Below, one piece after another: positions 667 to 26,433 of a stretch of 26,433 nucleotides of DNA; the first letter of the stretch is position 1; every line of letters starts with the position of its first letter. Both the position numbers and the translations under genes were made by a program. Origin of the DNA: a virus. The notes beneath the pieces were generated by a model that saw nothing but the letters and a program-made list of their open reading frames with translations, did no database searches and was not told the DNA's origin. Location of the stretch: positions 1 through 26,433 of the IMG/VR virus record IMGVR_UViG_3300042542_000350. One strand, given 5' to 3'.

Positions 667-1144
667 AATACAACAAATATTACCATACATGCCAAATGTA
701 CGTGGTGTGTATTATTTACCATTTTTTATGCAACATTTAAGTGAATTAAATGGTACGGAGATGTATACCAAAGCATCTTTAAGCAGAGAGTCATTTGAAA
801 CGCATATTCAATACCAATCTTCAATGGGTCCAGCAATTACTGCCTTTGTACATAACAAGCCTGTAGCTGTTTTTGGGTGCGTTATAATATGGAATGGCGT
901 AGGAGAGGCATGGTCTTTGCTATCAGAGGAATCTCGTAGATATCCAATTGCTATGACTAAAGCTGGAATTGCATTTATTGATATCGTTGAGATATTATTT
1001 CGCTTGCACAGAGTACAAATAACTGTTAAAACCTCTGATGCTCGTGCTATTAGGTGGGCAAAAGCTCTTGGATTCCAATCTGAAGGCGTTTTAAAACAAT
1101 ACAGTGCGGATAAAGAAGATTATAATATTTTAAGGAGAACGTAA
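653..1144 (+). CDS. GNAT acetyltransferase-like protein, T7 gp13 type
   Basis: The 163-residue protein has a GNAT-like pattern: a central strand pair around AFVHNKPVAVFGC, a following helix, and a C-terminal segment DARAIRWAKALGFQSEG that looks like the end of an acetyltransferase fold. This is the style of the T7 gp13-like family (DUF2833), found beside structural genes in podoviruses and often called an internal virion protein. Whether it binds acetyl-CoA is unclear, because a clean pyrophosphate loop (Q/RxxGxG/A) is not visible. It starts inside the terminase 3' end and ends in TAATG with the next gene, so it is part of the same translation-coupled late operon. Confidence 0.7.
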   Translation: MFLTEIQQILPYMPNVRGVYYLPFFMQHLSELNGTEMYTKASLSRESFETHIQYQSSMGPAITAFVHNKPVAVFGCVIIWNGVGEAWSLLSEESRRYPIAMTKAGIAFIDIVEILFRLHRVQITVKTSDARAIRWAKALGFQSEGVLKQYSADKEDYNILRRT

Positions 1145-1389
1145 TGGGTGGAATGTTTGGTGGTGGTAAACCAGATACTTCAGCAATGCAAGCTCAAATT
1201 GAGCAGCAACGCAAAGAAACTGAAAGATTAAGAGCGCAAGCTGAGCAAGAAAAACGTGATTTATCAGAAGAACTGTCAGCTAAACGTAAAGCAAGATCAA
1301 CGCGTGGTGGTTCACGTTTGTTATTAGCAGAAGAAAGATTAACTCCAGAAGCTGGATTACCAATGGACGAAGAAAAATTAGGAGCATAG
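1144..1389 (+). CDS. Small charged coiled-coil phage protein
   Basis: This 81-residue protein begins with a glycine-rich MGGMFGGGKP segment, followed by a strongly charged Gln/Glu/Lys/Arg helix (about residues 16-50) predicted as coiled coil, then a basic RSTRGGSRLLL stretch. Small proteins with this Gly-rich start, charged helix and RxGR/LL end are common next to terminase and portal genes of podoviruses, but no biochemical role is known to me. The start shares the A of the preceding stop (TAATG) and the next gene begins one base after its stop. I regard it as a real gene of unknown function. Confidence 0.7.
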   Translation: MGGMFGGGKPDTSAMQAQIEQQRKETERLRAQAEQEKRDLSEELSAKRKARSTRGGSRLLLAEERLTPEAGLPMDEEKLGA

Positions 1390-1390
1390 T

Positions 1391-1834
1391 ATGGCAGAAC
1401 GCAATCTTTCTTATGTAGAAGCTGTAGCACAAGGATTAGTTGTTCCAAGTAAAAAATCTTCTAAAGGCAAAGCTATTTATAAAGGCTTTATGTCTGAATA
1501 TGGTGTTGATTCAAGTGTTGCTCAAAGAGCTATTTTAAAACCAGAGTCATGGTGGAATGCAAGATATTCATCTGATTTACAAAGTAGTAGTTCTACATAC
1601 CTTGAGTCAGCTAGAAAGCAACTTAAAGGGCAATCTGAAAAAGTACAAAGAGAAAAAGCGCGTGCTGATGTAGCAACACAAAGATTGTCTCGCGTTACTG
1701 GTGGTTTAATTGGTGGTGAAGCTGGTGGAGCAGCAGCATCTTCTCCAGTAGGATCATTGCCAGCATTAGGCGTATCAGGTTCTGGTGGTTTAGCAGATGA
1801 AACAATGTTAGGGTTAAGGAAAAAACTAAAATGA
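1391..1834 (+). CDS. Hypothetical phage protein, 147 aa
   Basis: I do not recognise a family. The N-terminal half has mixed charged and aromatic residues (KPESWWNARY around residues 51-60). A Lys/Gln/Glu-rich helix covers about 70-100. The last third is a low-complexity Gly/Ala/Ser stretch ending in a basic RKKLK tail. No signal peptide or membrane segment is seen. It is packed one base after the upstream gene, and its stop overlaps the next start in ATGA, so it is very likely translated with the terminase-to-portal operon. It may be a minor virion protein, but that rests only on position. Confidence 0.65.
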   Translation: MAERNLSYVEAVAQGLVVPSKKSSKGKAIYKGFMSEYGVDSSVAQRAILKPESWWNARYSSDLQSSSSTYLESARKQLKGQSEKVQREKARADVATQRLSRVTGGLIGGEAGGAAASSPVGSLPALGVSGSGGLADETMLGLRKKLK

Positions 1835-1986
1835 AAAAAGACAAAATGCAAGCTAAGGTTAAAAAAGTTATGCGTGAGTATAAGTCTGGCACACTTCATT
1901 CTGGTAAAGGTGGCCCAGTTGTTAAATCACAAAAGCAAGCAGTAGCAATTGCTATGAGCGAAGCTGGAATGGCTAAGAAAAAATGA
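1831..1986 (+). CDS. DUF6496-like small basic protein
   Basis: This is a 51-codon gene. It is basic and shows the pattern KVKKVMREYKSGTLHSG, then KGGPVVKSQKQAVAIAMSEAG and a KK tail, which matches the small DUF6496-type family (vMxEfk-G-LhSGsk-GP-VknrkQAiAIAlSEAg). Members are found in phages and bacteria; their role is unknown, though the basic composition suggests nucleic-acid or virion association. It begins in an ATGA overlap with the upstream gene and ends in an ATGA overlap with the next, a strong sign of a genuine coupled gene despite its size. Family naming is from memory of the motif. Confidence 0.8.
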   Translation: MKKDKMQAKVKKVMREYKSGTLHSGKGGPVVKSQKQAVAIAMSEAGMAKKK

Positions 1987-2132
1987 AAACAGAAATTTCA
2001 ATTGAGTTAGACGAAGAAGATCTTAAAGATAAAAAGTTATCTGTTTATGTTGCAAAACTATTAGCTAAAAAAGCCAAAGAAAATAAAAAAGGCATGATAG
2101 ATGAAATGCCAGAAGAAGATGAAGAAGATTAA
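1983..2132 (+). CDS. Small acidic hypothetical protein, 49 aa
   Basis: This 49-residue frame starts in an ATGA overlap with the DUF6496-like gene and ends in TAATG with the next gene, so it sits exactly in the coupled chain. The protein has an acidic N-terminus (ELDEEDLKD), a lysine-rich helix in the middle and a very acidic C-terminus (MPEEDEED). No family is recognised. The end-to-end overlaps and lack of any gap are the main evidence that it is real. Confidence 0.65.
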   Translation: MKTEISIELDEEDLKDKKLSVYVAKLLAKKAKENKKGMIDEMPEEDEED

Positions 2133-2716
2133 TGGCAATTACTGTATTTAGAGAGTCTGATAATACTAAATCAATATTTGTTACTCCAACATTTATTGAC
2201 CAAAATGACAATCAGATTGTAGCTGGATCTGAAAAGCCATTTCCTGTAGCTGATATTAATCATATTCGATTGCACGAAGGTCGTGCATATTATGTATATG
2301 ATTTCCATGGATCAGCAAATCAATTAGCAAATAATGCCAATATGGATATTGCTATTGCATGGGCAGCTGGTAAAACGCCGCATTTAGTTTTTGATGTAAA
2401 GTGTGGTGGAGATGCAGAGTTTAGAATTTATGAGGGAGCAACTGTAACTGGAGGAACTTCATTTACAGCTATTAATAGATATAGACCATCTACTAATGTA
2501 AGTGCTAGCGCTGCTCTTATTGACCCAACAGTAACGTCTACAGGAACTGTATTAGCTGCTCAGTTTATTGCTGGAGGATCTGGGGGTCAAGCTGTTGGAG
2601 GTGATGCATTTTCGTTTCAATATGTATTAAAACCATTAACAACGTATTTATTTAGATTAACAAATAAAAGTGGTCAATCACATATGGCTCACGCGATGAT
2701 TGAGTGGTATGAATAA
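2132..2716 (+). CDS. Putative head decoration or head-fibre-like virion protein
   Basis: The 194-residue protein resembles a widespread phage structural family of about 200 residues. Features include an early HEGRAYYVYDF segment, a middle FRIYEGATVTGGT, then NRYRPSTNVSAS, a Gly-rich GGSGGQAVGG turn and a C-terminal strand YLFRLTN..S...HAMIEWYE. The composition is beta-rich with no signal peptide or helix-rich region. Such proteins lie near head genes and are presumed to decorate capsids, although here that is inference. It overlaps its neighbours in TAATG at both ends, in the operon leading to the portal. Confidence 0.65.
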   Translation: MAITVFRESDNTKSIFVTPTFIDQNDNQIVAGSEKPFPVADINHIRLHEGRAYYVYDFHGSANQLANNANMDIAIAWAAGKTPHLVFDVKCGGDAEFRIYEGATVTGGTSFTAINRYRPSTNVSASAALIDPTVTSTGTVLAAQFIAGGSGGQAVGGDAFSFQYVLKPLTTYLFRLTNKSGQSHMAHAMIEWYE

Positions 2717-2988
2717 TGCCATTAAAGAAATATCAAAATCCTAAAGGTGGTTTGAATGAGGCTGGCAGAAAACACTTTGAAAGCAAAGAGGGTGGTAACT
2801 TACAATCTCCAGTCAAGAGTGGTACAAATCCTAGGCGCGTGTCTTTTGCTGCTCGTTTTGGTGGAATGGATGGTCCATTAGTAGATGATAAGGGTAGGCC
2901 TACTCGATTGAAGTTAGCTTTAAAAGCTTGGGGATTTGGTAGTAAAGAAGCAGCAAGAAACTTTGCAAATAAAAATAAGAAATCATAG
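2716..2988 (+). CDS. DUF6321-like small protein
   Basis: The 90 residues match the DUF6321-type pattern: KGGLNEAGRKHF near the N-terminus, then Gly/Asn-LQSPVKSGTNPRR, SFAARFGGMDGPLVDDKG, and PTRLKLALKAWGF followed by a basic tail. This family is often found in phages together with DUF6496-type proteins; its function is unknown. The protein is basic and small, with no membrane segment. It overlaps the upstream stop by one base (TAATG) and lies nine bases before the portal gene, so it is probably made with the head-assembly proteins. Assignment is from motif recognition. Confidence 0.8.
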   Translation: MPLKKYQNPKGGLNEAGRKHFESKEGGNLQSPVKSGTNPRRVSFAARFGGMDGPLVDDKGRPTRLKLALKAWGFGSKEAARNFANKNKKS

Positions 2989-2996
2989 GGATTAAT

Positions 2997-4577
2997 ATGG
3001 CAGAAATGATGAGATTATCCGCAGATGATGTTTTAAAAAGACATGATAAAGCGCTAACAAAAAAAGAGGACTTTAGAAGTCTATACGAGGAATGCTACGA
3101 ATTTGCGTTACCACAACGTAATCTTTATGACGGATACTACGAAGGTAAGGTAGGCGGTCAAAAGAAAATGAATCGTGTATTCGATTCTACAGCTATTAAC
3201 TCTACACAACGATTTGCTAATCGTATGCAATCTGGCATATTCCCACCACAACGTAAGTGGTGCAGACTTGAACCAGGACCAGATATTCCTGAAGATCGCA
3301 AAGAAGAAGCACAAGCAGCATTAGATATTTACTCAGATAAATTGTTTGCATCACTCAAGCAATCAAACTTTGATATTGCTATTGGCGAGTTTTTACTTGA
3401 TCTATCTGTAGGTACTGCTGTAATGATGGTACAACCAGGTGATGATATTAATCCACTTAACTTCATTCCTGTGCCACAATTCTTAGTATCATTTGAAGAA
3501 GGTGCTAATGGTCAAGTAGACAATGTATATAGACGTATGCGTCTTAAAGGTGAGTCTATTATGCGTCAATGGCCTGATGCAGTTATTCCAGATGACTTGC
3601 AAAAGAAGATTGACCAAAAGCCAACAGAAGATTTAGAGTTTATTGAAGCTACAGTATTAGATCAAAAGCGTGGTGATTTCTGTTATCACGTTATTCATAA
3701 AGAATCTAAGACTGAATTAGTATATAGACGTATGGAAGAAAGTCCATGGATTGTATCACGCTATGCAAAAGTAGCTGGTGAGATCTATGGTCGCGGTCCA
3801 TTAATCACTGCATTGCCAGATATTAAAACACTTAATAAGACATTAGAGTTATTGCTCAAGAATGCTTCATTAGCTATTGCTGGTGTTTATACAGCTGCTG
3901 ATGATGGCGTATTAAATCCTAATACAGTTAAGATTATTCCTGGTGCAATCATTCCTGTTGCTCGTAATGGTGGCCCACAAGGCGAATCATTAAAGCCATT
4001 GCCACGTGCTGGTGATTTTAATGTATCTCAAATTATTATGAATGACTTACGTCTAAGCATTAAGCGTATCTTACTTGATGAATCCTTACCACCAGATAAT
4101 ATGTCAGCTCGTTCTGCTACAGAAGTTGTAGAGCGTATGAAGGAATTATCACAAAACTTAGGCTCTGCTTTTGGTAGACTGATAAATGAAACGATGATAC
4201 CATTAGTTACTAAGATTTTAAGAGTCATGGATCAACGTGGTCTTATTGATTTGCCTCTTAAAGTTAATGGACTTGAAATTAAAGTGTCAGCAGTAGCACC
4301 ATTAGCTATGGCTCAAAGCATGGAAGATGTGCAGAATGTATTGCAATATGCACAGATCGTACAACAAGCTGGACCTCAAGCTGCTATGACTATTAAAACA
4401 GATGAGATGATGGACTTTATTGCTGAGAAGTTAGGTATCCCACAAAAGATACGTAATACGAAAGAAGAACGTATGATGCTACAACAACAAACTGCTGAGA
4501 TGGCACAACAAGTTGCTCAACAAAATCCAGAGGCAATTCCTGGTATGGTTGAAGCAGCTAGTCAAGGAGTGATGTAA
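2997..4577 (+). CDS. Portal protein (head-to-tail connector)
   Basis: The 526-residue protein has the size and motifs of podoviral head-to-tail connecting proteins (T7 gp8-like, PF12236 type). These form the dodecameric ring through which DNA enters and leaves. Visible signatures are FDSTAINSTQRFANRMQSG near the N-terminus, a central PWIVSRYAKVAGEIYGRGP followed by DIKTLNKTLE, then RSATEVVERM..L and INETMIPLV in the C-terminal helices. The last 40 residues are Gln-rich. An AGGG element lies just before the ATG. It ends in TAATG with the next gene. Identification is secure by motif and context. Confidence 0.95.
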   Translation: MAEMMRLSADDVLKRHDKALTKKEDFRSLYEECYEFALPQRNLYDGYYEGKVGGQKKMNRVFDSTAINSTQRFANRMQSGIFPPQRKWCRLEPGPDIPEDRKEEAQAALDIYSDKLFASLKQSNFDIAIGEFLLDLSVGTAVMMVQPGDDINPLNFIPVPQFLVSFEEGANGQVDNVYRRMRLKGESIMRQWPDAVIPDDLQKKIDQKPTEDLEFIEATVLDQKRGDFCYHVIHKESKTELVYRRMEESPWIVSRYAKVAGEIYGRGPLITALPDIKTLNKTLELLLKNASLAIAGVYTAADDGVLNPNTVKIIPGAIIPVARNGGPQGESLKPLPRAGDFNVSQIIMNDLRLSIKRILLDESLPPDNMSARSATEVVERMKELSQNLGSAFGRLINETMIPLVTKILRVMDQRGLIDLPLKVNGLEIKVSAVAPLAMAQSMEDVQNVLQYAQIVQQAGPQAAMTIKTDEMMDFIAEKLGIPQKIRNTKEERMMLQQQTAEMAQQVAQQNPEAIPGMVEAASQGVM

Positions 4578-15642: not shown

Positions 15643-18600
15643 ATGGCTGATTATGCAATAACAAACGTAGCAAGACGAATCGTATACACTGGATCTGCGG
15701 GTGTGGGGCCTTATGCCTTTTCATTCCCCATATTAGTAAATACAGATATCGCAGTATACAAGAATACTACACTTCTTACATTAACCACAGACTACACTGT
15801 AACCATTAGCGGAACTACTGGTCAAGGATCAGTCACATTAGTAGTAGCTGCTACAGGTGCTGATCGTATTACTATTGTAGGTGCTAGATCTATTCAGCGT
15901 TCAACAGACTTCGTAACTGGTGGTGATTTCTTTGCCAATACTCTTAATACAGAATTAGATTCAGAAGTAATCTTTGTTCAGCAAGTAGCTGAAACAGCAG
16001 AGCGTTCTATTAAAGCGCCTGTAACAGATCCTACATCTATTGACATGACGTTGCCAGCAAATACAACTCGTGCTAATAAATTCTTAGCATTTAACTCTAC
16101 TGGTAATCCACAAACATTAGATGCTGTTGGAACATATAGAGGTAATTGGGCTGCAAGCACAGCATATGTCTTACAAGATATCGTTAAAGATACATCTAAT
16201 AGCAATATCTATATTTGCATTTCTGCACATACATCTACAGGATCACAACCTATATCAAGTAATGCTGACGTAGCTAAATGGTCTTTAGTTGTAGACGCTG
16301 CGGCTGCTGGCACAAGTGCTACTGCTGCTGCTGCTAGTGCTAGTGCTGCTTCAACAAGCGCTACTAACGCTGCCGCTTCTGCTTCTACTGCAACTACCCA
16401 AGCAAGCAATGCTTCTACTAGCGCATCGACTGCATCTACTCAAGCATCAAATGCTTCAACAAGTGCAAGCAATGCTGCATCAAGTGCATCTGCTGCAAGT
16501 GGATCAGCAACAACAGCTGCAACACAAGCAAGTAACGCTGGCACATCAGCTACCGCTGCTGCTTCATCCGCATCTGCTGCGTCATCTAGTGCAACTGCTG
16601 CTGCTGCTTCTGCTTCTACTGCTACAACACAGGCTTCTAATGCAGCTACTTCTGCTAGTAACGCATCTACAAGTGCAACAAGTGCATCTGGCTTTGCGAC
16701 ATCTGCAAGCACACAGGCTGGCAATGCAGCAACATCTGCAAGTAATGCTTCTACATCAGCGTCTAACGCATTAACATCAGAAACTAATGCAGCAACATCT
16801 GCAAGTGCAGCTTCAACATCGGCGACTAATGCAGCTGCTAGTTATGATGCTTTTGATGATAGATACCTTGGATCTAAATCATCTGCTCCTAGCGTAGATA
16901 ATGATGGTAATGCTTTATTAACTGGTGCTTTATATTACAACACTACAGCAAGTCAATTATATGTATGGACAGGATCTGCATGGGATGCTGCTGCATTTAG
17001 TATCTCTGGATCAGTTACTAGCTTTAGTGCTGGAAGCACAGGCTTTACTCCAAATACCGCAACAACTGGCGCTGTCACTTTAGGTGGCACATTAGCTGTA
17101 GGTAATGGTGGTACAGGAACATCTACAGCGTTTACTGCTGGTTCAGTCCTATTCTCAGGTGCATCTGGTGTTTACTCACAAGACAATGCTAACTTCTTTT
17201 GGGATGATACTAATAATTATTTAGGTATAGGTACTACAAGTCCAATTACAAATTTAACTATCAATAGAAACGCATCATTTACAGGAACTCCAGCAATTAC
17301 AACTAATGGATTTCATATAATTGGTCAGGATTCTTCTAATACTGGAATGACTGTTGATACTTTTGCTATAAATTCACAAATAACATTTAGACGAGCCAAT
17401 GGTACTCTTGCTTCACCTACTGCACTTATATCTGGAAATATTATTGGTTCTATAACAGGGCGTGGATATGGAGCTACAGCTTATGCTTCAGCTAATAGAG
17501 GACTGATACAGTTAGTAGCAGCAGAAAATTGGACAGACACCGCACAAGGAACATATTGGCAATTTAACACAGTAGCTTCAGGCACAACTACATCATCAGA
17601 AAAAATGCGTATAGACTCCTCTGGTAATGTAGGTATTGGTACTAGTAGTCCAACAACTACTCTATTCGTAAATAGAGCTACCTCTGGTCATGCAGCTACT
17701 TTCTATTCAAATGGTGGTGGAGTAACAACTGGATTTAACATATATGGCATTACTTTAACAGGTAATGTCTCCAACGGTTCTTCAGAGTGTAATATTGTTT
17801 ACGGAGCTGGTGGTGCTGGATTAGCATTCAATAGCTGGAACGGCACTACGCAAACAGAACGTATGCGTATTACCTCTGCTGGTAATGTAGGGATTGGTAC
17901 TAGTAGTCCTTTGTATAAATTAGATATACACACATCAGGTAGTGGAACTGCACTTCACGCAACAGATAACGCAAATGCAGATATGTTTGTTGATTTTCCT
18001 TCTGCAGGAATTACTAGATTAACTTCTCAATATGGAACAGATGGAATATTTACATTTGCAAACGGAACTGGAAAAACAGAACGTATGCGTATAGACTCTA
18101 GTGGTAATGTAGGGATAGGTACTACGAGTATTTTAGCATCTACTAAACTAGATGTTCGTGGCGCAATTTCTGCTTATGATGGTGGTACTCAAGAAGTTAG
18201 ATTAAATATTGATGGTAATATTGAATTAGCTAGAACTGATGCTGCAGCTTTTATTGATTTTAAATCATCTACAGCAGAAGATTATGATTGTCGCATTCAA
18301 CAACAGTCTAATGGACTAACATTTCAAACAGGTGGAAATGGAACAGCATCAGAACGCATGCGTATAAACTCTATTGGTAATGTAGGAATTGGAACATCAA
18401 CACCAACTGGGGCTTTAAGTATAACTACAGGTCAAAATGCTTCTATTGTAACTACAGGTCCTGGCGCCCATGGGCGGATGATTGGAAAGTATTTTACTAA
18501 TGGTGGTTCTGCTAAAACAATTAATTTACTTACAATTGATAGTTTTAATACTGTTAATACTCGTGTATTTGTAACTGTAAAGATAAGATGGGTAAATGCT

Positions 18601-18840
18601 ATTGGAGACCAAGGCAGTGCAGCATCAGCATGGGCTGGAGCTTCACAAGGTGGAACAAGAACACAAGGTGCTTTTGTAGCTTCAGAAGTTTGGGGTTCTT
18701 CAGTACTTCCGTCATTAAGCTGGAGCGGAAATACATTGCGAATAACTACTCCAGCTGTATCGTTTATAGGCGGTTCTATAGATGTTGAATTTGTATCTTT
18801 TGACGGAGCTAACGTAACACTTGACTCATCAAATCAATAA
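15643..18840 (+). CDS. Tail fibre protein with T7-type N-terminus
   Basis: The 1065-residue protein starts with the T7 tail-fibre N-terminal domain (about residues 1-130): VARRIVYTGSAGVGPYAFSF, DYTV, then STDFVTGGDFFANTLNTELD and FVQQVAETAERSIKAP, which anchors fibres to the tail nozzle. Residues 219-401 form an Ala/Ser/Thr shaft of short imperfect repeats. The segment NALLTGALYYNTTASQLYVWTGSAWD follows. The distal half carries four EKMRIDSSGNVGIGTSSP-type modules. The C-terminus has aromatic receptor-tip composition (VNAIGDQGSAASAWAG..), and no S74 autoprotease Ser-Asp/His region is evident. It is the likely host-range determinant. Confidence 0.93.
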   Translation: MADYAITNVARRIVYTGSAGVGPYAFSFPILVNTDIAVYKNTTLLTLTTDYTVTISGTTGQGSVTLVVAATGADRITIVGARSIQRSTDFVTGGDFFANTLNTELDSEVIFVQQVAETAERSIKAPVTDPTSIDMTLPANTTRANKFLAFNSTGNPQTLDAVGTYRGNWAASTAYVLQDIVKDTSNSNIYICISAHTSTGSQPISSNADVAKWSLVVDAAAAGTSATAAAASASAASTSATNAAASASTATTQASNASTSASTASTQASNASTSASNAASSASAASGSATTAATQASNAGTSATAAASSASAASSSATAAAASASTATTQASNAATSASNASTSATSASGFATSASTQAGNAATSASNASTSASNALTSETNAATSASAASTSATNAAASYDAFDDRYLGSKSSAPSVDNDGNALLTGALYYNTTASQLYVWTGSAWDAAAFSISGSVTSFSAGSTGFTPNTATTGAVTLGGTLAVGNGGTGTSTAFTAGSVLFSGASGVYSQDNANFFWDDTNNYLGIGTTSPITNLTINRNASFTGTPAITTNGFHIIGQDSSNTGMTVDTFAINSQITFRRANGTLASPTALISGNIIGSITGRGYGATAYASANRGLIQLVAAENWTDTAQGTYWQFNTVASGTTTSSEKMRIDSSGNVGIGTSSPTTTLFVNRATSGHAATFYSNGGGVTTGFNIYGITLTGNVSNGSSECNIVYGAGGAGLAFNSWNGTTQTERMRITSAGNVGIGTSSPLYKLDIHTSGSGTALHATDNANADMFVDFPSAGITRLTSQYGTDGIFTFANGTGKTERMRIDSSGNVGIGTTSILASTKLDVRGAISAYDGGTQEVRLNIDGNIELARTDAAAFIDFKSSTAEDYDCRIQQQSNGLTFQTGGNGTASERMRINSIGNVGIGTSTPTGALSITTGQNASIVTTGPGAHGRMIGKYFTNGGSAKTINLLTIDSFNTVNTRVFVTVKIRWVNAIGDQGSAASAWAGASQGGTRTQGAFVASEVWGSSVLPSLSWSGNTLRITTPAVSFIGGSIDVEFVSFDGANVTLDSSNQ
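16297..16845 (+). repeat. Ala/Ser/Thr/Asn low-complexity shaft repeats in tail fibre
   Basis: The stretch is built from short imperfect units such as ASNASTSAS and AATTQASNA. At DNA level it is rich in GCN, TCT and ACA codons with many near-identical 15-30 base blocks. It encodes fibre residues 219-401, probably an extended trimeric shaft. The codon runs create long false frames in the other five frames. Confidence 0.85.
17599..18405 (+). repeat. Four GNVGIGT modules in the distal tail fibre
   Basis: Near-identical segments encoding E(R/K)MRI-S-GNVGIGT start at 17599, 17857, 18079 and 18352 (fibre residues 653, 739, 813 and 904). A degenerate start of the same kind (YLGIGTTSP) lies at about 17218. 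Spacing is about 86, 74 and 91 residues. The DNA is conserved enough to allow recombination between copies, a known way for fibres to change length or receptor tip. Confidence 0.82.
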
Positions 18841-23601: not shown

Positions 23602-23814
23602 CTAGAACTTTCTTTGCTCAAAGCATTCAAGATGGTTAGTCACAAACATATTCTTCTTTACTTCCTCAAATAGTTTGCCATCAATACACTTTAAATCTTT
23701 GTCTGCAAAACTTCTTGGCTTGATCTGATTAATGTTTACCTCAACGCTAACAAATAGCATTATAAATATACACACTATACACATTAGCGTTAGCCATATT
23801 TCTTTATTCGTCAT
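23602..23814 (-). CDS. Small single-pass membrane protein with periplasmic tail
   Basis: From the ATG at 23814 the protein is 70 residues: a hydrophobic segment (WLTLMCIVCIFIMLFVSVEV, about residues 6-25) followed by a basic/charged tail with Cys and Lys residues (DKDLKCIDGKLFEE..) and ending LECFEQRKF. I prefer this start because an AGGATC ribosome site sits just before it; an upstream in-frame ATG at 23838 lies inside the preceding small gene and lacks a site. No family is recognised. It overlaps the upstream 47-codon gene by 11 bases. Confidence 0.62.
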   Translation of the reverse strand: MTNKEIWLTLMCIVCIFIMLFVSVEVNINQIKPRSFADKDLKCIDGKLFEEVKKNMFVTNHLECFEQRKF

Positions 23815-23947
23815 AATGATCCTGTATGCCATGGTCATGTTTAAAGTTACTAATTAAGTCCTCATCTTCCATCGGTTCTTCATATAATCTTTGAAGTCCT
23901 TTGAGTGGTTTCTTAACTTTCTTAGGCTGCTCTAAATCATCATCCAT
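23804..23947 (-). CDS. Small acidic hypothetical protein, 47 aa
   Basis: A 47-codon leftward gene has an excellent AGGAGG ribosome site just before its ATG at 23947. The peptide begins MDDDLEQPKKVKKPLKGLQ and ends with HDHGIQDHYDE, so it is charged with a basic middle and acidic His-rich end. No family is recognised. The strong ribosome site and its close fit between the SleB-like gene and the next membrane protein support it as real. Confidence 0.65.
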   Translation of the reverse strand: MDDDLEQPKKVKKPLKGLQRLYEEPMEDEDLISNFKHDHGIQDHYDE

Positions 23948-23956
23948 AATATCCTC

Positions 23957-24310
23957 CTAATAAAATATATGATTGTTAATAATAGTTCTTGGCTTCATAC
24001 CCCACTGATTATCCATCTTAACATGATGAAAGTAACTAGCTCCCTTGCTACTGTCTTTGATTTGTTGTTGGATAATTTTTTGGGATAATTCTATGAATGG
24101 TTTGAGTGTTTTGTAAGGCGGGACATGCTTTGTTTTTTTAGTCCATTCAAACTGGTGTGGTTTGAAAGTCTCCGAGCATATATTCTTTTGGTCAAAGTCA
24201 GCTCTCCGATAAAGCACATACCCCACTGCCACTTGGCCAGAGATAGGTTCACCTCTGGCTTCATGGAACATGGTCAAACTCATACACATGACTGCTGCAA
24301 TATCTAACAT
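23957..24310 (-). CDS. Cell wall hydrolase, SleB-like (Hydrolase_2)
   Basis: The 117-residue protein matches the SleB/Hydrolase_2 domain: MFHEARGEPISGQVAVGYVLYRR (about residues 14-36, with the conserved catalytic Glu in HEARGE), ICSETFKPHQFEW, then GASYFHHV and a C-terminal W. These enzymes cut peptidoglycan glycan chains. There is no clear signal peptide, so it may be released by holin or act in another way. The ATG at 24310 follows an AAGGAG site. It lies on the leftward strand with recombination genes, apart from the lysozyme in the rightward lysis cluster, and immediately left of pqqA. Confidence 0.85.
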   Translation of the reverse strand: MLDIAAVMCMSLTMFHEARGEPISGQVAVGYVLYRRADFDQKNICSETFKPHQFEWTKKTKHVPPYKTLKPFIELSQKIIQQQIKDSSKGASYFHHVKMDNQWGMKPRTIINNHIFY

Positions 24311-24353
24311 AAAGTCTCCTTCATTAGGTAGCTTTCATGGTTTTACTGATTAG

Positions 24354-24381
24354 TTTGTCTTGCAAAAAGTGCATACTTTGC
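24354..24381 (+). promoter_or_regulatory. pqqA upstream element shared with the capsid leader
   Basis: The block order TTTGTCTT, GCAAAA, TGCATA, TTTGC occurs here with short gaps and also, in the same order with slightly longer gaps, at 5671-5705 upstream of the capsid gene. It lies 42 bases before the pqqA start, in the only space where pqqA could have its own promoter. A clear -10/-35 pair at 17 spacing is not visible, so this may be an activator site or a phage-type promoter. The rest of 24382-24422 holds a small ACAAG/CTTGT inverted repeat (24385-24402) and an AAGGA ribosome site. Confidence 0.4.
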
Positions 24382-24422
24382 GTAACAAGTAATCTTGCTT
24401 GTCATAGATAAGGACTAACACC

Positions 24423-24494
24423 ATGTGGACAACTCCAGCAGCTACTGAAATGCGCTTTGGCTTCGAAGTTACAATGTACGTAATGAATAAATAA
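24423..24494 (+). CDS. pqqA: PqqA, precursor peptide of the cofactor PQQ
   Basis: The 23-codon frame encodes a near-consensus PqqA: MWTTPAATEMRFGFEVT followed by MYVMNK. It has the family W2, P5, R11, G13 and the E-x3-Y motif at Glu15 and Tyr19. In known pathways PqqE, a radical SAM enzyme, with PqqD joins these two side chains to begin PQQ synthesis, and proteases and PqqB/C finish it. Length equals the short form of the family. No pqqB-E gene is in the window, so host enzymes would be required. An AAGGA site lies eight bases upstream. It is the only rightward gene in a leftward region, which implies its own transcript. The 3' end overlaps the next leftward gene by 26 bases. Chance occurrence is very unlikely. 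Confidence 0.92.
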   Translation: MWTTPAATEMRFGFEVTMYVMNK

Positions 24495-24669
24495 GCCAAG
24501 CATACAATGATAAGGCAATGCCTACGGAGATCTTTGTTGCTCTCCAGATGCGTTGCCTTTTCTCTTTAGGTGACTCCATTGTCACCTCGTATTCATAGCC
24601 ATTGATCTCTTTAAATGAGCGTGGATAACGCCATTCAAAAGCATTGAAGTTAGTTTTTATTTGTTTCAT
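24469..24669 (-). CDS. Small membrane protein, 66 aa, convergent with pqqA
   Basis: The 66-residue leftward protein has a charged aromatic N-terminus (FNAFEWRYPRSFKEINGYEYEV), a basic region (SPKEKRQRIWRATK) and one C-terminal hydrophobic segment (ISVGIALSLYAWLIYSL), so it is probably anchored with the tail in the membrane. An AAAGGA site lies before its ATG. Its start is 20 bases inside the ERF gene end, and its last 26 bases are antisense to the end of pqqA. No family is recognised. Confidence 0.62.
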   Translation of the reverse strand: MKQIKTNFNAFEWRYPRSFKEINGYEYEVTMESPKEKRQRIWRATKISVGIALSLYAWLIYSLRTL

Positions 24670-25387
24670 TTGATTGTCCTTTCGTTCTGTTGATTCTAGT
24701 GGCTTGTCTGCCTATGTATAGAACCTTCTTATCTACGGGTAAGCGATCTAATGTCGGTAAGTTTACGTCTATTAGTGCCTTGAGTTTTGCTATCTTATCC
24801 TCTGTTGGTAGGCTAGAATTAACTAGCTGTTCAGACATTGCATCAAAATTCTTCTCCCATGTCAATAGATCTGGGCAACTAATTGCCTCTTTGTTGGGAA
24901 TAAAGAAGGATAAAGAGTTAGTTTGTGGCTTTTTTACAACACTGCCAGCTCTTTCTGTAGCTAGATTACCATCATCATCCTCTGGGGCTATGCCACAAGT
25001 AGCCATAAGGCTATATCTACGGGCATAAGTGAGGGCTGATCCATATCCTTGTGGGTCTTGTTTAGGTGCTGGTACATGTAAGATACCACCTGTTAAAGTC
25101 TCACCACTTTCGTGGATTAATATAGTCTCAATCTTGACACCGCTTTCACAATCGTGCGTCTGTTGGATGAGTGCAATACCATTGTTGTTGAGTGCATCCA
25201 ATACAGCTTCAATACATCCATCTAAAGACACATACTTAGATCTAAAGTGTGGATTCGTTGATGTCTTGAGTGCTGGTGCAAACTCTTTCTGTGCCTTAAC
25301 AAAGGCTGTTGCGATAGTTTTCATACTTTTCTCCTGTTGTTGTAATTCATTCATAACTTCTGTTTCAAAACGATCTTGATCGTTCAT
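24650..25387 (-). CDS. ERF-family single-strand annealing recombinase
   Basis: The protein shows ERF hallmarks: FVKAQKEFAPALKTSTNPHFRSKYVSLDGCIEAV, then NNNGIALIQQTHD, and a conserved QGYGSALTYARRYSLMATCGIAPEDDDGN. ERF proteins anneal complementary single strands for phage recombination and replication. The frame opens at 25387 in TAATG with the upstream gene (245 residues). A second in-frame ATG at 25324 has a much stronger AGGAG site six bases away and would give 224 residues, still including the whole conserved domain; this may be the true start. With the YqaJ exonuclease upstream it forms an exonuclease-annealase pair. Confidence 0.92.
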   Translation of the reverse strand: MNDQDRFETEVMNELQQQEKSMKTIATAFVKAQKEFAPALKTSTNPHFRSKYVSLDGCIEAVLDALNNNGIALIQQTHDCESGVKIETILIHESGETLTGGILHVPAPKQDPQGYGSALTYARRYSLMATCGIAPEDDDGNLATERAGSVVKKPQTNSLSFFIPNKEAISCPDLLTWEKNFDAMSEQLVNSSLPTEDKIAKLKALIDVNLPTLDRLPVDKKVLYIGRQATRINRTKGQSNETNKN

Positions 25388-25851
25388 TATCTAATTGCAG
25401 AGGCTATCTTGTCTAGTCTGCCTTCCTTTTCTAAAGCTGCTAACTGATTCATAGCTGTAGCTGCTCGCTCTAATAACTCTACATAACGATTAAGTCTTTC
25501 AAAGTTAGCTGCTTTCTCTACCCTTGCTAAACCTTGCAATAACTTTTCTTCTGCGTCTTTAACTGAGCTTGCTGCTTTCTTTGCATCACTAGAAAACAAT
25601 TCCTCAACCTGATTGAATTGATTGTACTGTTTTTTAAATGTTGTGATTGCTGTTTCTAAGTGTGATTCTGCTTTTTCAATATCTGTTGATATCATTTTGG
25701 CTTTCCTTTCAAATAAATAATTGTTGTTAATAAGTCTTGCTGCTGCTGTTAAAAAATCTTTGTCTGCAAACTTAGGGCCAAGCTTATCGTGACCAAATGG
25801 CTTTAACCCTATATCTTCAAAAGACTTTGTTGCTAAATCATAATGTCTCAT
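25387..25851 (-). CDS. Coiled-coil protein between exonuclease and annealase genes
   Basis: The 154-residue protein is mostly helical and charged after residue 50 (ISTDIEKAESHLETAITTFKKQYNQFNQVEELFSSDAKK..), predicted as coiled coil, with an N-terminal part that lists LGPKFADKDFLTAAARLI. No enzymatic motif is seen. It overlaps the exonuclease stop in ATGA and ends in TAATG with the ERF gene, so it is co-translated with the recombination pair and may link them or bind DNA. An internal ATG at residue 53 (25695) has a GGAAAG element and could start a shorter form. Confidence 0.65.
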   Translation of the reverse strand: MRHYDLATKSFEDIGLKPFGHDKLGPKFADKDFLTAAARLINNNYLFERKAKMISTDIEKAESHLETAITTFKKQYNQFNQVEELFSSDAKKAASSVKDAEEKLLQGLARVEKAANFERLNRYVELLERAATAMNQLAALEKEGRLDKIASAIR

Positions 25852-26433
25852 ATGCGATCCTTGATAGATAGTTTAGATTGCCTGATAACATAGGCTTCCT
25901 TAGCTGGCACAGTCTTTGCTGGCTGTGCTTTGTAAGAACGCATAGGCCATGAGATTTTGTAACGACCCGCATTACATACTTCGTGATCTCTCATATGCTC
26001 CATAATGTTGATTTGTAAGCGATCAATCTGTGCTTCTAACTCCGCGATTTGCTCACGAATTGTGATGATCTTCTCAGCTTGGATCTCAACTTCGGGTAAC
26101 TCAATCGTACTCTTTTCCGCACGATCAAACACGCGACTAGCTTCAAAAGAGTTTTGTAAGTCATACCATTCAATCTCTTGATTGGTTTTGTACTTATTCA
26201 AACGCTCTTGAAAATCCTCTACTGCATTGTGAATCATGTTGATGTGATCTTCATTAATAGGATATAAAAATATGCGTAATGTTGTGCCTTTGTATAACAC
26301 ACAAAGAGCGCCCCATGATGCTTTCATAATATCCATTTGACCTTGTAACTGTATGACACCACGATAAGGCGCTGGCTCATTCTCGACTTCCTGAGCTGTG
26401 AGTTTAGCTTCTAAGATACCATAGCCATCGAGC
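25848..26433 (-). CDS. YqaJ-like exonuclease (5' truncated by window)
   Basis: The leftward frame is open to the right edge, so the N-terminus is missing; the ATG at 26336 is internal. The visible 194 residues begin LDGYGILEAKLTAQEVENEPAPYRGVIQLQGQM, with the E-x-K core of PD-(D/E)xK nucleases (the Glu and Lys of LEAK) and the following QLQ-QM, as in YqaJ viral recombinases. A charged coiled-coil region (residues about 95-145 of the visible part) and a C-terminal segment GRYKISWPMRS.. end in AYVIRQSKLSIKDRI, typical for this family. It resects double-stranded ends for the ERF protein encoded downstream. Confidence 0.88.
   Translation of the reverse strand, partial: LDGYGILEAKLTAQEVENEPAPYRGVIQLQGQMDIMKASWGALCVLYKGTTLRIFLYPINEDHINMIHNAVEDFQERLNKYKTNQEIEWYDLQNSFEASRVFDRAEKSTIELPEVEIQAEKIITIREQIAELEAQIDRLQINIMEHMRDHEVCNAGRYKISWPMRSYKAQPAKTVPAKEAYVIRQSKLSIKDRI

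Follow-up and report, generated by a model that had tools for sequence, protein, structure and literature searches.

An orphan pqqA gene in a podovirus-like relative of OM43 phage MEP301, and its occurrence in methylophages

The window, by which we mean the whole stretch of DNA that was analysed, is a linear 26,433-base contig from IMG/VR (record IMGVR_UViG_3300042542_000350) and is probably incomplete; the genome of OM43 phage MEP301, for comparison, is 34.8 kb. Rightward genes occupy 28 to 23515, most of them of phage structural or lysis type; leftward genes follow from 23602 to 26336, among them those for an endolysin and an Erf-like recombinase. PHROGs assignments of a head-tail adaptor, a major head protein, a tail protein, the endolysin and the Erf-like annealing protein agree with the sequence-only reading, in which the surrounding genes were described as those of a phage. 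Within the leftward block lies a rightward pqqA gene, with the endolysin on one side and a 66-aa ORF on the other; given these flanking phage genes, it lies within a phage genome, as opposed to a host contig or a junction of host and virus. The features of the locus are as follows.

23957–24310, − strand: endolysin / cell wall hydrolase gene (phrog_938 endolysin, E 3.2e-13)
24311–24422, + strand: gap of 112 nt upstream of pqqA, with no rightward gene before it
24410–24414, + strand: Shine-Dalgarno site AAGGA, 8 nt upstream of the ATG (from the sequence)
24423–24494, + strand: pqqA, encoding a 23-residue PQQ precursor peptide (TIGR02107 and PF08042 over cut-off; purifying selection)
24465–24467, + strand: codon of Glu15, predicted cross-link residue (from its position in the peptide; invariant among copies)
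24477–24479, + strand: codon of Tyr19, predicted cross-link residue (from its position in the peptide; invariant among copies)
24469–24669, − strand: 66-aa ORF that converges on pqqA and covers its last 26 nt (from the ORF list)
24650–25387, − strand: Erf-like ssDNA annealing protein (phrog_2324, E 5.4e-43)

The reading frame of pqqA consists of 69 nt plus the stop codon TAA, and translation of 24423–24494 (+) gives MWTTPAATEMRFGFEVTMYVMNK followed by the stop. The 23-codon gene with an AAGGA site that had been proposed from the letters alone was borne out, and W2, P5, R11, G13, E15 and Y19 were each verified in the translation, including the E-x3-Y pair of the PqqA C-terminal part (E15 and Y19). 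Comparison with the PqqA profiles, the check suggested at that stage, was passed for both models: the Pfam PqqA model PF08042 matched with 40.3 bits (cut-off 21.1, E 3e-10, model positions 1–19 of 19) and the NCBIfam equivalog TIGR02107 with 38.8 bits (cut-off 20, E 5.6e-10) over its full length. Searched in all six frames, the complete record returned a single PqqA match, at this locus. By these matches the ORF is clearly assignable to the PqqA family, and the gene looks functional. An AGGA/AAGGA-type site also precedes nearly all of the pqqA genes collected here, viral and host. Any promoter of its own would have to sit in the 112-nt gap, and a consensus scan of the + strand upstream of pqqA found no sigma-70-like site; a CATAAT-like box was common to some relatives only and was unconvincing as a promoter. 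The 66-aa ORF had no match in a PHROGs search. Elsewhere in the window, 15643–18840 (+) encodes a 1065-residue tail-fibre-like protein with a long repetitive stretch rich in Ala, Ser and Thr.

The nearest cultured relative of the window phage is MEP301, with head-tail connectors that are 83.5% identical, and pqqA of MEP301 adjoins the ERF gene in a place and orientation that correspond to those in the window. We describe the contig as podovirus-like and akin to MEP301. With MEP301 as its closest cultured relative, an OM43-type Methylophilaceae bacterium is the probable host, which supports the methylotroph host group proposed earlier.

To survey named phages, the window peptide was searched by tblastn against 50,697 phage records. 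Twelve records were recovered, namely P19250A, Venkman, MEP301, MEP401, MEP402, four Melnitz records, ctXG6705 and two mislabelled bacterial contigs, and queries with Acinetobacter-type and D-L-R-F-type PqqA returned the identical set. The PqqA of P19250A is 100% identical to the window peptide. Each of the nine records of Methylophilales phages found there carries pqqA (P19250A, Venkman, MEP301, MEP401/402 and the four Melnitz records). The OM43 isolates MEP431–434 (Pelagivirus) appear to be absent from the collection, no Methylophilales phage being among 75 relatives, and as the collection was not listed by host, a pqqA-less record could in principle have escaped the count. Apart from the uncultured podovirus ctXG6705, no other genuine phage with pqqA was found among the 50,697 records. 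Both records labelled ‘Acinetobacter phage MD-2021a’ (CAKLQF020000010.1 and CAKLQH020000055.1) look like bacterial contigs and were rejected as pqqA phages; the one examined carries ppk and a full pqqABCDE operon. The gene is present in complete isolate phage genomes, and its carriers span the cluster of P19250A and Venkman (one genus-level cluster; PMC8163748), MEP301, the Zobellviridae (MEP401/402) and the Kyanoviridae (Melnitz). Judged by these matches, cultured methylophages from several families commonly carry pqqA, which was missed there owing to its small size.

In IMG/VR, the pattern RFGFEVTMYV[ML] gave at least 120 matches and a D-[LF]-R-type pattern 83 further ones, including records of 215 kb and 372 kb. 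The pqqA genes of these two large viral records are of a different sequence type, and the gene is not limited to small methylophages. Because the DNA search patterns fix residues about 10–21 of PqqA, we computed conservation statistics solely on sets recovered via other genes. One marker was the Erf-like gene of the window, used to find relatives independently of pqqA: pqqA was at the syntenic site in every one of the 21 relatives whose best segment reached 67% identity or more, and 7 of the next 59, the weakest of which are more distant, also have a pqqA. The other was the recombination-module neighbour of pqqA in P19250A, for which 64 of 66 testable close relatives carried pqqA about 300–480 nt downstream; the remaining two lacked it even at low stringency, and it was absent from three distant relatives. 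Occurrence was variable in the other groups, with pqqA adjacent in 3 of 12 MEP401-type loci and in 9 of 80 Melnitz-type loci; the Melnitz-type loci include many that are distant or truncated. Among nearly identical Melnitz-type baseplate loci, some have pqqA beside the tRNA-Leu position and others lack it, which suggests recent gain or loss at this tRNA-flanked site. An attempt to count lineages from shared proteins was set aside, the lineages having merged at low thresholds.

Both marker-derived sets showed that pqqA is kept by selection. Across the 12 distinct sequences found via ERF, pN/pS was 0.12, and for residues 9–23 pN was 0.011 against a pS of 0.44. The P19250A-type set (39 distinct sequences) had a pN/pS of 0.10 overall and of 0.05 for residues 9–23 (pN 0.028, pS 0.54). 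Variation in PqqA is concentrated in residues 3–8, chiefly at positions 4, 6 and 8. The DNA upstream of pqqA diverges fast among relatives and shifts by insertions, whereas pqqA does not; what selection keeps is the peptide and not the DNA. Glu15 and Tyr19 did not vary among 149 viral and 126 host copies, most of them pattern-found and thus with about residues 10–21 preset, nor among 64 copies found via a neighbouring gene. Together with its recurrence in unrelated methylophages, this selection supports a real benefit of the gene to its carriers. As to ancestry, the window peptide is identical to many Methylophilaceae host PqqA copies, six nucleotide sequences of pqqA are exactly common to the host and viral sets, and nearest neighbours were mixed (71 phage, 22 host and 29 tied), so that 66 nt per sequence do not separate a host from a phage ancestry.

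The host family has the remainder of the pathway, as had been supposed. Twelve Methylophilaceae genomes contained 1–12 TIGR02107 matches each, PqqE was over cut-off in 11 of them (the twelfth being a small single-cell assembly), and pqqB–D were observed beside host pqqA. Published counts for the family are 3–12 copies of pqqA, with the other pqq genes in single copy (PMC4109929); that hosts multiply pqqA alone suggests that precursor dosage matters to them. Genes for pqqB/C were near pqqA in 21 of 120 host loci, and many host copies are likewise orphans. In viruses, pqqB, C, D or E was found beside pqqA in none of 208 loci, and PqqE was over cut-off in none of 50 long pqqA-bearing records. The earlier statement that no second pqq gene is present holds for the 26.4-kb window, from a contig that is probably incomplete. 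The window gene therefore resembles host pqqA in its 23-residue product, which is identical to many host copies and matched by both family models, and differs from it in being phage-encoded and an orphan, with no pqqB–E in the contig.

One pqqA-bearing virus of 72 kb (IMGVR_UViG_3300025120_009955) also encodes a 624-residue quinoprotein dehydrogenase of the methanol/ethanol family (607.9 bits to TIGR03075, cut-off 480). The gene lies at 990–2861 (+) of the extracted locus; its product has a Cys-Cys pair, together with a W-D-Y-D-G motif that suggests the lanthanide XoxF type. No such domain was found in the remaining 49 of the 50 long pqqA-bearing viral records, and no quinoprotein gene within the window. 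A search of 51 pqqA-bearing records for the AmoC/PmoC family found none, in a search that had no positive control.

Whether viral pqqA had been reported before was a question left by the sequence-only reading, and the answer is that it is already known, from virus VP_266 of Lake Baikal (Coutinho et al., 2020; PMC7678222). A 2026 reservoir study likewise has pqqA among its virus-encoded genes (PMC13188868). VP_266 is like the window in being a pqqA virus with a predicted Methylophilaceae host and the same proposed role (PMC7678222), and unlike it in being T4-like and carrying a methanol dehydrogenase, whereas the window is podovirus-like and has no such gene. The Baikal paper described P19250A as without any of the auxiliary metabolic genes (AMGs) of that study (PMC7678222); this is contradicted by pqqA at 28082–28153 (−) of P19250A, which is not within any annotated gene. 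Open-access papers on Venkman, MEP301, MEP401/402 and Melnitz make no mention of pqqA as a phage gene, and its extent among cultured methylophages appears unreported.

We consider it likely that the window carries a functional, stand-alone pqqA AMG of a Methylophilaceae phage (OM43 or Ca. Methylopumilus-like) that keeps host methanol oxidation going. PqqA is consumed once per PQQ, while the enzymes of the pathway are reused. As host mRNA decays during infection, the PqqA input would be exhausted first, because it is the sole pathway member used one-for-one, and the enzymes would persist. The phage-made peptide would then be passed to host PqqD/PqqE, cross-linked at Glu15–Tyr19 and trimmed, and host PqqB and PqqC would complete the PQQ that loads the XoxF/MxaF methanol dehydrogenases. 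By supplying pqqA alone, the phage could sustain methanol oxidation and with it the flow of energy and C1 carbon, by the same logic as psbA in cyanophages. If the phage shuts down host transcription, short-lived PqqA would be the first input lost, so that carriage of pqqA would keep the dehydrogenase in cofactor. Against such a benefit, hosts have several pqqA copies and one more might add little, and turnover of dehydrogenase-bound PQQ may be too slow for synthesis within one infection to matter. The patchy occurrence in MEP401-type and Melnitz-type loci and the lack of a clear promoter also weigh against this reading.

Supply of precursor is nevertheless the explanation that best fits the phage gene when set against its alternatives. 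A host fragment picked up recently and carried without selection could readily be drawn from the many scattered pqqA copies that hosts offer, and the six shared nucleotide sequences are consistent with such an origin. However, pqqA is near-fixed in two lineages (21/21 and 64/66), it is under strong purifying selection while the DNA upstream diverges, and unrelated phage families carry it, with hosts all of one order; these selection data largely refute a passive passenger, to which we give scarcely any credence. Still less, next to nil, is the chance that the segment acts as a DNA or RNA regulatory element with an incidental reading frame. Although the gene is very short and has no clear promoter, its codons change freely at synonymous positions but preserve the peptide, and the Shine-Dalgarno site is retained, a codon pattern that in effect refutes this reading.

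Two further alternatives accept the peptide as the functional product. It could tie up PqqD/PqqE as a decoy, throttling host PQQ or freeing SAM and the iron-sulphur enzyme, since a substrate mimic could compete; the concentration of variation in residues 3–8, in the N-terminal part expected to touch PqqD (PMC10906245), is in keeping with this. With its cross-link residues and C-terminal part invariant and its sequence often identical to that of the host, the peptide should be a good substrate and not a dead end, and one relative encodes its own quinoprotein dehydrogenase, which makes inhibition very unlikely. Alternatively, the benefit may be PQQ itself, as an antioxidant or as cofactor of another periplasmic enzyme, and not methanol oxidation. 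Antioxidant roles have been reported for PQQ, and the absence of a quinoprotein gene from the window also favours this option. Yet pqqA is tightly linked to methylotroph hosts and not to the many other PQQ-making hosts of the collection, and in one virus it is paired with a methanol/ethanol-family dehydrogenase; we regard a role of PQQ outside methanol oxidation as unlikely.

Members of the Methylophilaceae play an important part in methanol consumption in coastal seas and lakes. Should their phages commonly supply the PQQ precursor, viral infection would bear on one-carbon oxidation more directly than one would conclude from annotation. A comparable role in supporting one-carbon oxidation has been proposed for pmoC of large methanotroph phages (PMC7674155), there with an enzyme subunit and here with a cofactor precursor. 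A broader proposal, to which we give about an even chance, is that pqqA is the methylophage counterpart of cyanophage psbA: several unrelated families would each carry the sole consumed part of PQQ synthesis, host shut-off would starve methanol dehydrogenase, and the gene would have been overlooked because gene finders drop 23-codon genes. The two are alike in that the phage would bring only a short-lived or consumed part of the host energy system; they differ in that one is a photosystem protein and the other a 23-residue cofactor precursor, which makes this an analogy and not a membership. The gene may be the most frequent metabolic gene among cultured methylophages and have been overlooked as such, and peptide-precursor genes of fewer than 30 codons are a blind spot of viral metabolic gene surveys. 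In the records examined, phage pqqA was without annotation or lay beneath an opposite-strand ‘hypothetical protein’. Two hypothetical proteins antisense to pqqA, MelnitzEXVC044M_152 (locus 3961–4056, −) and UOF77531.1 (locus 2067–2195, −), are probably spurious gene calls.
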